From: Deltaproteobacteria bacterium
GTDB taxonomy: Bacteria > Myxococcota_A > Polyangia > Haliangiales > Haliangiaceae
Reading direction: 5' to 3'
DNA: 40,274 nucleotides
Assembly: GCA_019237945.1 (NCBI GenBank)
Contig: JAFAOG010000084.1
Span: 1-40,274, forward strand
Of the stretch, positions 1-39,523 are shown piece by piece. A program made the translations under genes and the position numbers. How positions within the stretch are numbered: position 1 is the stretch's first letter; every line of letters begins with the position of its first letter. Below the pieces are notes generated by a model, which saw only the letters and a program-made list of their open reading frames with translations, made no database searches and was not told where the DNA came from.

Positions 1-570
1 GATGTAGTTCAAGTACTCCCGGCGCACCGGCAACGGGTTCGAGAGGTAGCTCGTCGGGATCGCGTACTCGATGACGCGCGAGTGCGCGTCGTAGGTGTCG
101 AAGTTGACGTAGAAGTGCGAGCCCGCGATCGAGGGGATCTGCCACGCGCCGACGAAGAACGAGTCGCCCGTCGCGATCTGCGCGTACAGGAGCAGCTTCT
201 GGTTGAGGCCGAACAGGTTGTTCTCGCCAAAGCCGATGCCGCCGCCGACGTTCGTCGGCTGGTTGTAGAACGCGGGCGCGATGATCCAGCTGTGCTTGTC
301 GTGCACCGTGATGTGGACGCGCATGCCGCCCTGCATCGGCTCGTAGAACACCTCGACGTCGCTGAACAGCCCGCTCGAGACGAGGCGCGACTTGACGACG
401 TCGACCATCTCGGGCTGCCAGTCGTCGCCGGTATCGATGTGAGCGATCAGCTCGACGGTATCGGTCGTCGTCTTGGTATTCCCCTCGACGACGATCTCCT
501 TGATTTCATCGGCGTACAGATTGCCGGCGAACCCACCGATCAGAGCCAGGGCCAGGACGAGCCGACGCAC
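1..570 (-). CDS. Omp85/BamA-like outer-membrane protein with POTRA domain (3' end outside window)
   Basis: The visible 190 residues start at a GTG, have a short hydrophobic signal peptide ending around LYA, and continue directly with DEIKEIVVEGNTKT, the opening of a POTRA domain (about residues 22-100, with the SGLFSDVEVFYEP turn typical of POTRA repeats). After it comes HSWIIAPAFYNQPTNVGGG and then FGENNLFGLNQKLLLYAQ, the kind of transition into a 16-strand barrel seen in BamA, TamA and other surface-antigen (Omp85) proteins. Family members insert or translocate outer-membrane proteins. Only one POTRA is visible before barrel-like sequence, fewer than the five of BamA, so a small Omp85 variant is likelier than BamA itself. 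The GTG start is supported by a TATACT box exactly 6 bases upstream. The C-terminus lies beyond base 1. Confidence 0.8.
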   Translation of the reverse strand, partial: MRRLVLALALIGGFAGNLYADEIKEIVVEGNTKTTTDTVELIAHIDTGDDWQPEMVDVVKSRLVSSGLFSDVEVFYEPMQGGMRVHITVHDKHSWIIAPAFYNQPTNVGGGIGFGENNLFGLNQKLLLYAQIATGDSFFVGAWQIPSIAGSHFYVNFDTYDAHSRVIEYAIPTSYLSNPLPVRREYLNYI

Positions 571-576
571 TCGCGG

Positions 577-582
577 AGTATA
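577..582 (-). promoter_or_regulatory. -10 box TATACT, leaderless-type promoter of the Omp85 gene
   Basis: TATACT on the minus strand is followed by 6 bases and the GTG start at 570. It is the best -10 match of the set in this window. No TTGACA-like -35 is visible 17 bases further up. Transcription would begin at or next to the start codon. Confidence 0.6.
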
Positions 583-586
583 TGTT
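581..586 (+). promoter_or_regulatory. Possible -10 box TATGTT for the YbjN-like gene
   Basis: TATGTT lies 11 bases before the ATG at 598 and overlaps the opposite-facing TATACT box by two bases, so the two divergent genes would share one AT-rich patch. A leader of about 5 bases is predicted. Confidence 0.35.
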
Positions 587-597
587 AACAACGACCC

Positions 598-1083
598 ATG
601 AATCCCGCCGAAGTGGCCACCGCGCTCCTCATCGAGAAGACGCTCGAGAACAGCCCCGCGTACCGCAAGATTGACGACACGCTGTACGTCATCAAGCAGG
701 GCTCGGCCTACGTGATGATCAGCGTGGTGCCGTGGGGGGACAACCGGGCGATGGTGCGGTGTACCGCACAGCTCGTGAAGGGCGTCGATGTCGATGGCCC
801 GCTCGCGAAGCAGCTGCTCGAGCTCAATGGTCACCTGCGTTTCGGCGCATTTGCGTGGGATCCCGGCGAGCACACGGTCCTGTTCACGCACACGATCCTC
901 GGCGGGACGACGCTCGATCCCGAGGAGCTGATGGCCACGCTGCGCGATGTGGCGCTGGTCGCTGACGAGTACGACGACAAGCTGATGAAGAAGTACGGCG
1001 GCCAGCGGATGATCGATCTGCTCGAAGAGGCCGCCATGGAGCGGATCATGGAAAAGGATCCGAAGGGGTTCCGCTTTGAGTGA
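598..1083 (+). CDS. YbjN-domain protein
   Basis: 161 residues with no signal peptide or membrane segment. The fold pattern (helix, KIDDTLYVIKQGSAYVMISV strands, long alpha/beta stretch, HLRFGAFAWDPGEHTVLFTH strands, C-terminal helices) matches the YbjN / type III secretion chaperone-like superfamily, soluble proteins of poorly defined regulatory or chaperone role. A highly charged C-terminal helix (about 125-161) carries YDDKLMKKYGG. The last 8 bases overlap the next gene, whose TTG start lies inside this reading frame, so the two are probably co-transcribed and translationally coupled. Why a YbjN protein is paired with a sulfur amino-acid enzyme is not evident. The fold assignment is by sequence impression, not by a profile search. 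Confidence 0.7.
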   Translation: MNPAEVATALLIEKTLENSPAYRKIDDTLYVIKQGSAYVMISVVPWGDNRAMVRCTAQLVKGVDVDGPLAKQLLELNGHLRFGAFAWDPGEHTVLFTHTILGGTTLDPEELMATLRDVALVADEYDDKLMKKYGGQRMIDLLEEAAMERIMEKDPKGFRFE

Positions 1084-38329: not shown

Positions 38330-38336
38330 CGCGCGC

Positions 38337-38342
38337 AGGCTA
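38337..38342 (-). promoter_or_regulatory. -10 box TAGCCT, leaderless-type promoter of the methyltransferase
   Basis: TAGCCT on the minus strand, 7 bases, GTG at 38329. Confidence 0.35.
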
Positions 38343-38374
38343 CCACGCGGCCTGCGCGGCCATCGCGTCGCAGG

Positions 38375-38380
38375 TACGAT
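38375..38380 (+). promoter_or_regulatory. -10 box TACGAT, leaderless-type promoter of the GT4 gene
   Basis: TACGAT, GCGCGC (6 bases), GTG at 38387. Same hexamer and spacing as at 24456. Confidence 0.5.
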
Positions 38381-38386
38381 GCGCGC

Positions 38387-39523
38387 GTGAACGTCCTGCA
38401 CGTCTGCGGCATGTACGTGCCCGCCACCGAGTGGGGAGGCACGACGACGGCCGTCGCGGCATACGCCGAGGCGCTCGCGCGGGCGGGGGTGCGCGTCGAG
38501 GTGTTCACGACGACCGCGCGCGGCAATGCCTCGCTGCCGCCGATCGAGCCGGGCACGCGCGACGTCAACGGCGTGCGCGTCACGTACTTCCCCGCCGCCG
38601 CGAAGCGTCAGTCGTTCATCGCGCCCGCGATGGTGCCCGCGCTCGCGCGCCGCCTCCGCGACTTCGACGTCGTCCACACGCACATGCTGTGGGCGTTCCC
38701 CGGCATCGCGGTCGCACGGCTCGCCGATCTACGGCGCGTCCCCTACGTCGTCACGCCGCACGGCAGCCTCGATCCGTGGGCGCTCTCGCAGCGGCGCTGG
38801 ATGAAGCGGCTGTTCCTGCTCGCGTCGGAGTACCGCACGTTGCGCCACGCCGCGCGCGTCCACTACACGGCCGAGGCCGAGCGCACGAGCGTGCCGCGCG
38901 AGCTGCAGCGCCTGCCGAGCGCGGTGATCCCGAACATCGTCGACGCGACGCGCTTCACGGCGGGCGACCCGGGTGCGAGCGACGACATCCTGATGCTCGG
39001 CCGCATCCACGAGATGAAGGGCTTCGACGCGATGATCCACGCGCTGCCCGCCGTCGTCGCGGCTCGCCCGCGCGCGCGACTCGTGATCGCGGGCCCCGAC
39101 GAGGCCGGCTATCGCGCCGTGGTGGAGCGGATGATCGACGCGCACGGCGTGCGCGCGAAGGTTCACTTCACCGGCCACGTCGATGCGGCAACGCGCGCGC
39201 AGCTGTTCGCGTCGAGCGCCGTGCTCGCGCAGCCGTCGTATCGCGAGAACTTCGGCATGGCGGTCGCGGAGGCGATGGCGGCGGGGCTGCCGGTCGTCGT
39301 CTCGGACCGCGTCAACATCTGCGACGAGATCACGGCCGGCGACGCCGGCATCACGGTGCCCCGCGAGCCGGTCGCGCTCGCGCGCGCGCTGATCGACGTG
39401 CTCGCGGACCCGGCGCGCCGGCGGCGGATGGGCGCGAATGGTCGCCGGCTCGTCGAGCAGCGCTATGCGCCGGCCGCCGTCGCCGCCGAGCTGATCGCGA
39501 TGTACCAGGCGATCCGTCGCTAG
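38387..39523 (+). CDS. GT4 glycosyltransferase (GT-B)
   Basis: 378 residues from a GTG. N-terminal half: NVLHVCGMYVPATEWGGTTTAVAAYA (acceptor-binding Gly loop), VEVFTTTARG, FDVVHTHMLWAFPGIAVARL, VTPHGSLDPWAL. C-terminal donor half: ILMLGRIHEMKGFDAMI, LVIAGPDEAGYR, VHFTGHVDA, and PSYRENFGMAVAEAMAAGLPVVVSD with the E-x7-E motif of retaining GT4 enzymes. Soluble. It probably adds a hexose to the growing surface glycan; the donor is not predictable. The GTG start is fixed by the conserved VLHVCG strand and by a TACGAT box 6 bases before it. Confidence 0.9.
   Translation: MNVLHVCGMYVPATEWGGTTTAVAAYAEALARAGVRVEVFTTTARGNASLPPIEPGTRDVNGVRVTYFPAAAKRQSFIAPAMVPALARRLRDFDVVHTHMLWAFPGIAVARLADLRRVPYVVTPHGSLDPWALSQRRWMKRLFLLASEYRTLRHAARVHYTAEAERTSVPRELQRLPSAVIPNIVDATRFTAGDPGASDDILMLGRIHEMKGFDAMIHALPAVVAARPRARLVIAGPDEAGYRAVVERMIDAHGVRAKVHFTGHVDAATRAQLFASSAVLAQPSYRENFGMAVAEAMAAGLPVVVSDRVNICDEITAGDAGITVPREPVALARALIDVLADPARRRRMGANGRRLVEQRYAPAAVAAELIAMYQAIRR

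Follow-up and report, generated by a model that had tools for sequence, protein, structure and literature searches.

Many genes on a 40,274-nucleotide contig from a Haliangiaceae bacterium (JAFAOG010000084.1 of GenBank assembly GCA_019237945.1; this whole stretch of DNA is called the window here) are preceded by a hexamer of the form TANNNT that ends six bases before an ATG or GTG start codon. These hexamers are very probably −10 promoter elements from which leaderless mRNA is started, and about a quarter of the genes that we sampled probably have messages whose first base is that of the start codon. The box and its spacing are repeated across the genome and in related genomes, are tied to a particular gene context, and come without a −35 element and without a Shine-Dalgarno (SD) sequence.

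Spacing of the box across the genome

The assembly to which the window belongs, as contig C354, measures 8.13 Mb (G000; 632 contigs, 94% complete), and a sample of 0.909 Mb with 748 genes, 11% of the genome, was analysed. Among the best 80 of 587 matches to a cystathionine-synthase-like protein encoded in the window, the top three come from Deltaproteobacteria metagenome assemblies (69% identity) and many other phyla appear at lower ranks, which suggests a myxobacterial phylum. Genes were called with a coding score derived from phase-specific 5-mers, and their starts were assigned by a separate model trained on the 0.909 Mb by expectation-maximization (EM), which gives each start a posterior and whose leaderless class has a box 4–10 bases before the start. 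The gap is the number of bases between the end of TANNNT and the start codon, and gaps of 5–8 were compared with TANNNT at 15–18 bases. Boxes were present at gaps 5–8 in 191 of 748 genes and at 15–18 in eight, with the mode at gap 6; the 191 comprise 67 of 261 genes on blind-picked stretches, 111 of 450 on contigs mostly from a hit list and 13 of the 37 window genes whose start lies inside the window. The original prediction had staked itself on a genome-wide logo with a TANNNT peak at positions −12 to −7, and in this 11% sample the peak was present there.

A peak of this kind might be an artefact of start choice, if among several ATG or GTG codons the one preceded by a box is taken. The start model does reward boxes, and the coding score alone often prefers a different nearby start. 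The peak persisted, however, when all candidate starts were counted without choosing: among 772 ATG/GTG codons up to 60 bases from gene beginnings in 425 kb, a box stood at gap 6 in 45 cases, at gap 7 in 23 and at gap 8 in 18, with 0–9 boxes at every other gap from 0 to 30, and none of the 3303 internal in-frame ATG/GTG codons had TANNNT at gap 6. Decoy spacings that were allowed equal freedom of start choice also fell short of the true one, which gave 185 of 748 genes compared with 20–38 (mean 27) for shifts of 9–33; shifts of 3 and 6, which overlap the shoulders of the true peak, gave 74 and 41. Raw pattern counts that are independent of gene calls agreed with this, as GTANNNT-N6-RTG occurs 482 times in the whole genome and the in-phase control GTANNNT-N15-RTG 127 times. 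This in-phase control was adopted because a reversed-pattern control was biased, many genomes having more control than true matches. An artefact of start choice is thus barely credible. The excess over decoys, approximately 158 of 748 genes, would put the leaderless share of the sampled genes at about 21% at the least, and the plain count would put it at about 25%.

Promoter features and gene context

Within the box, only T1, A2 and T6 were conserved; the middle was weak, with T avoided at position 4, and the spacer was GC-rich. A weak TG, as in an extended −10 element, occurred two bases upstream of the box in 31 of 161 cases, where base composition would give approximately 6%. The claim that no −35 element accompanies the box held, since the best TTGACA match averaged 2.68 at spacers of 15–19 versus 2.49–2.66 at three decoy offsets, and no logo column upstream of −4 exceeded 0.07 bit. 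Matches to the CarD domain were seen in frames of 162 and 174 amino acids (C602:3064-3240 and C501:7628-7798 of the same genome) and in one frame of 757 amino acids. CarD-type factors assist weak promoters in mycobacteria, and CarD-domain proteins may be relevant to promoters that lack a −35 element here.

SD sequences were distributed as had been predicted, at background level before boxed genes and mainly before genes without the box. SD-like words preceded 14 of 191 boxed genes, compared with 75 of 748 background windows and 166 of 557 unboxed genes (boxed versus unboxed, P = 2e-11), and were found in 83 of 161 unboxed genes that overlap or abut the upstream gene (coupled genes). Two start classes exist in this genome, one boxed without an SD sequence and the other comprising the remaining starts. 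A comparison with operon-internal genes, which had been proposed as a control, was clear-cut: nine of 170 coupled genes were boxed versus 182 of 578 others (Fisher P = 3e-14). Boxes preceded 94 of 270 divergent first genes and, for same-strand genes grouped by distance to the upstream stop codon, 42 of 88 at 5–25 bases, 19 of 59 at 26–60 bases and 21 of 136 beyond 60 bases, as well as 6 of 25 genes at the edges of stretches. In two genomes of the same genus, G417 and G328, coupled genes were boxed in 1 of 49 and 0 of 43 cases, respectively.

The frequency of boxes in the 5–25 class, whose genes may be cotranscribed with their upstream neighbours, could also follow if the box acted in translation, as an AT-rich patch free of structure ahead of the start codon, with no promoter role. 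Such a patch fits poorly with conservation confined to three positions and a spacing sharp at six, with the mutual exclusion of box and SD sequence, and with divergent boxes that interlock in promoter geometry (see below). Coupled genes, which would have the greatest need of such signals, are mostly unboxed; a promoter should avoid these genes and a translation signal should not, so the rarity of the box among them favours a promoter. We consider a translation signal very improbable.

As −10 elements, the boxes would most likely be recognized by the housekeeping sigma factor. If RNA polymerase uses them as we infer from the sequence, transcription from a box at gap 6 would start with the A or G of the start codon and yield an mRNA without a leader, while gaps of 7–8 would give leaders of 0–2 bases. 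The ribosome would then have to bind a 5′-terminal start codon without SD pairing, and coupled genes, about half of which have an SD-like sequence, would instead rely on translational coupling. Many start codons in these genomes would accordingly escape SD rules, and the box offers a usable rule in their place that would change some predicted N-termini.

Position of the transcription start

Across the blind-picked stretches, G417 and G328, 1748 candidate starts featured a box at gap 6 in 83 cases, at gap 7 in 53, at gap 8 in 32 and at gap 9 in 25, and gaps 12–40 had 2–14 boxes each. This additional enrichment at gaps 7–9 is compatible with boxes that are −10 elements of which many give transcripts with leaders of one to five bases, the boxes at 11 bases then producing five-base leaders. 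A small secondary peak does exist at 11, where 28 starts without a nearer box were found among 3192 candidates in four samples, compared with 4–23 at each of gaps 10 and 12–30; three of the 28 are window boxes. Moreover, the spacing modelled for Nannocystis is spread over gaps 6–9, and the distance from −10 element to start site is described as variable elsewhere (PMC12825309). The mode, on the other hand, is gap 6 in G000, in G417, in G328 and in the pooled genomes G316 and G115 of the same family, which puts the start site on the codon. Short leaders on many transcripts therefore appear unlikely to us, and we favour initiation on the start codon itself. The 11-base boxes may reflect five-base leaders or, as may hold for the start at 598 (+), arise as symmetric counterparts of a box that serves a different gene.

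Relatives and the wider phylum

Boxes at the same spacing were found in 56 of 269 genes of G417 and 55 of 256 of G328 (controls 8 and 1, respectively), in 39 of 175 genes of G316 and G115 combined (control 4), in 17 of 106 genes of Nannocystis pusilla, with a broader spacing (control 2), and in 6 of 65 genes of Myxococcus dinghuensis (control 0). The window box at 5932–5937 precedes an adenosine deaminase gene that has close orthologues in 13 of the 15 other genus genomes. With orthologue starts chosen by the analyst, the position of the nearest in-frame start differs by as many as five codons when the proteins are aligned, and a −10-like hexamer follows it (TATAAT, TACAGT, GATAGT five times, CATAGT, GATCAT and GACAAT). 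The box score at gaps 5–9 averaged 1.98 over the 14 loci, own genome included, and no more than −0.68 at any of eight decoy shifts.

In a survey of 377 genomes of the phylum, the N6 pattern significantly exceeded the N15 control in 98 (Bonferroni 0.01) and was rarer than the control in 47. Of the families sampled, the window's (f1) had the highest median N6/N15 ratio, 3.67, and 8 of 8 genomes reached significance, while ratios were near 1 in families f25, f42 and f46; such ratios depend on base composition, because AT-richer genomes have more background. N6/N15 counts for seven genomes, out of the 30 with named loci, were 452/119 in the metagenome-assembled genome SJ525, 70/25 in Anaeromyxobacter PSR-1, 323/132 in Nannocystis pusilla, 138/110 in Myxococcus dinghuensis, 135/141 in Citreicoccus inhibens, 367/310 in Bdellovibrio bacteriovorus and 226/273 in Pseudomonas atagonensis. 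The leaderless signal was patchy: it was strong in some families of the phylum and almost missing from others, with f22, f9, f30 and f38 singled out. An N6 excess was also seen in another phylum, in Chthonomonas sp. UBA6659 (284 versus 152), which we take to belong to Armatimonadota. The patchiness within one phylum makes gain and loss of leaderless expression comparable between related families, which is relevant to the question of whether leaderless initiation was inherited from an ancestor or regained.

Several results count against the interpretation of the boxes as leaderless −10 elements. The EM weight of the boxed class was 0.34, which is an unsafe estimate because shuffled upstream DNA still received 0.18–0.27, with meaningless motifs. 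A mixture model begun from random motifs (gaps 0–30, five seeds) returned GC-rich motifs and never TANNNT, which was recovered only when the model began from TANNNT near its position (gaps 4–10); the motif carried 5.7 bits in real upstream DNA versus at most 2.2 bits in shuffled upstream DNA, which did not yield TANNNT. Boxes were less frequent in same-strand genes whose upstream stop is over 60 bases away than in divergent genes, and the 5–25 class was boxed less often in the genus genomes (6 of 25 in G417, 4 of 17 in G328) than in the window's own genome. At the adenosine deaminase, a strong box precedes the gene in only three of the 14 loci; GATAGT stands there in five, and a good box is missing from three. 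Finally, 16S rRNA, and hence the anti-SD sequence, was found in none of 20 genomes (own plus 19 relatives, several of them more than 90% complete).

Compact gene borders

In G000, 44 boxed genes lie 0–25 bases from an upstream stop codon. The stop codon itself forms the beginning of the box in 11 of them (TAA or TAG supplying T1A2N3); the box follows the stop directly in nine and begins ahead of it in three. At the spacings of 9–11 bases, TAA or TAG was the stop codon in 19 of 28 cases versus 89 of 208 at other spacings from 5 to 54 (pooled, nominal P = 0.015). By genome these were 15 of 19 in G000, 3 of 5 in G417 and 1 of 4 in G328, with no cases in G316 and G115; since G000 drives the bias, the use of a stop codon as half of the next gene's box is only suggestive.

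Divergent genes provide the other compact arrangement. Of eleven divergent pairs 21–25 bp apart, eight share an interlocked pair of boxes (ANNNTANNNT); a single box is present in two and no box in the last. All eight two-box pairs that are 20–29 bp apart interlock, with a TA common to both boxes, and the 21 two-box pairs less than 70 bp apart in four samples have a box span of 10 bp in eight cases, 17 bp in one and 32–50 bp in twelve. The window contains one such core (AGTATATGTT, 10 bp, 577–586) in the 27-bp region between the divergent genes starting at 570 (−) and 598 (+), where the gaps are 6 and 11 bases. If transcription begins on the start codons, gaps of six on both sides place the start sites 23 bp apart, so that opposite −10 elements would overlap in 8 of the 21 two-box pairs at an implied start-site distance of approximately 23 bp, a value that comes from geometry only. 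TA is self-complementary and one further A makes the opposite box, so symmetry favours interlocking by chance.

The exact pattern with gaps of six on both sides outnumbered its reversed control by 11 to 1 in the window's own genome, 82 to 21 in 16 genus genomes and 131 to 46 in 30 family genomes, counted as raw matches, intergenic or not, against an uncalibrated control. The control exceeded the true pattern in four of the 30 (G418, G424, G426 and G428) and equalled it in G363 and G417. A synergy between the start codons flanking ANNNTANNNT was considered and rejected: 16 cases were observed where the mean of other cells was 2.9, but 17.2 are expected if the two sides are enriched independently, and no excess beyond independence is claimed.

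Together with the gene spacings, these patterns lead us to propose, tentatively and as something a little short of probable, that leaderless promoters shrink gene borders to their physical limit. Two leaderless mRNAs would arise from a region of 21–25 bp between divergent neighbours, with a shared, interlocked 10-bp core (ANNNTANNNT) and start codons 5–8 bases to either side, and same-strand genes would fit a promoter of their own into a gap of 9–23 bp, where a TAA or TAG stop would sometimes double as the opening half of the −10 box. A shared divergent core predicts start sites that are testable at single gene pairs.

Boxes in the window

The original prediction names 14 starts, and inspection of the 40 bases upstream of each located all 13 of its boxes (eight at gap 6, two at gap 7 and three at 11 bases) and the near miss CATGAT. 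The ten boxes at gaps 6 and 7 all fell into the leaderless class of the start model, with posteriors of 0.86–0.99, and the claimed excess over chance was borne out: with the starts taken as given, eight gap-6 boxes among 36 starts (37 in the later count) correspond to P of approximately 2e-12 at a background of 0.4% and 2e-9 at 1%.

On the minus strand, the putative −10 boxes are TATACT at 577–582 (gap 6 to GTG 570; posterior 0.99), whose TA at 581–582 is common with the plus-strand TATGTT, TATGGT at 5932–5937 (gap 6 to ATG 5925 of the adenosine deaminase, PF00962; 0.98), TAGACT at 8670–8675 (gap 6 to GTG 8663; 0.99), TATCGT at 29692–29697 (gap 6 to ATG 29685; 0.86) and TAGCCT at 38337–38342 (gap 7 to GTG 38329; 0.96). 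The plus strand carries TAGCTT at 6466–6471 (gap 6 to GTG 6478; 0.96), which adjoins the upstream TGA stop at 6463–6465, TACGAT at 24456–24461 (gap 6 to GTG 24468; 0.90), which adjoins the upstream TAG stop at 24453–24455, TAGGAT at 27955–27960 (gap 6 to GTG 27967; 0.91), TAGGGT at 36364–36369 (gap 7 to GTG 36377; 0.95) and TACGAT at 38375–38380 (gap 6 to GTG 38387 of a glycosyltransferase gene; 0.89). The near miss CATGAT at 17400–17405 (+), at gap 6 to GTG 17412, reached a posterior of only 0.24. The same-strand 5–25 class includes five boxed window genes, 12–18 bases from the upstream stop.

The further set of boxes proposed at 11 bases stood in part. TATGTT at 581–586 (+; before ATG 598, interlocking with 577–582), TACCAT at 4022–4027 (−; before ATG 4010) and TAGTCT at 36347–36352 (−; before GTG 36335) are all present and agree with the small secondary peak, but the class is minor, the starts at 598 and 4010 are not those picked by the model, and the start at 36335 has a posterior of 0.09 for the class with boxes at 4–10 bases.

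The protein encoded at 3210–4010 (−) contains a sigma-70 region 4 domain (PF08281), with no further Pfam match at E 0.001, and is possibly a sigma factor resembling those of the extracytoplasmic function (ECF) group, or a relative. Three boxed genes, at 24468–25400 (+), 27967–28896 (+) and 28900–29685 (−), encode related proteins of unknown function. The first two share 33% identity over 308 positions, the second and third share two short matches, and Pfam analysis of the three gave a DUF7481 match in one and no family in two.

Comparison with known systems

The leaderless −10 architecture is already established in Mycobacterium and Deinococcus and was predicted in 2011 for some delta-proteobacteria. 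Mycobacterium tuberculosis is reported to use TANNNT centred 7–12 bases upstream of the start site with no −35 consensus and a minority TGN extension, with RNA-seq start sites mapped on Met and Val start codons and with closely set divergent promoters (PMC3898074). The window's genome is alike in its TANNNT, its lack of a −35 element, its minority TG extension and its close putative divergent promoters, although it belongs to another phylum and its starts are inferred where those of M. tuberculosis were mapped; the TG extension looks commoner here (31 of 161) than the 7% given for M. tuberculosis (PMC3898074). In Deinococcus-Thermus, a −10 motif is described a few bases upstream of approximately 30% of open reading frames on average, with leaderless mRNA, and reporter assays indicated that it suffices without a −35 element (PMC12340547). 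The motif is likewise adjacent to many reading frames here, on the evidence of sequence in place of reporters. That study scanned species across bacteria, and its main text does not contain the string 'Myxococc'.

Closest in taxonomy is the in silico study of Zheng et al. (2011; PMC3160421), which surveyed 33 delta-proteobacterial genomes and reported TA-led leaderless genes in 8 of them, making up 15.8% of genes on average, with TANNNT approximately 12 bases before the start, as in the present case. Four myxobacterial name stems are absent from its main text, and the gene-context architecture is not met with in passages of that study. Among top-ranked, mostly open papers, to which the literature search was limited, we found neither a start-site map in which leaderless mRNAs are reported for a myxobacterium nor an account of leaderless genes that mentions stop codons or an interlocking of divergent boxes. 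A parallel to the overlap of stop codon and box is the overlap of stop codons with SD sequences described in a 2009 survey (PMC2784483).

For the divergent pairs, the nearest counterparts are the bidirectional promoters of Escherichia coli and Salmonella, in which overlapping −10 elements on opposite strands are explained by sequence symmetry and start sites lie most often 18 bp, and also 10 or 23 bp, apart (PMC10268837, PMC12825309). They differ in that both products are predicted to be leaderless here, a word that does not occur in the main texts of these two papers. The two systems are alike in their geometry, as 23 bp, a common start-site distance of the E. coli bidirectional promoters (PMC12825309), is the distance that follows from the shared TA in the present genome.

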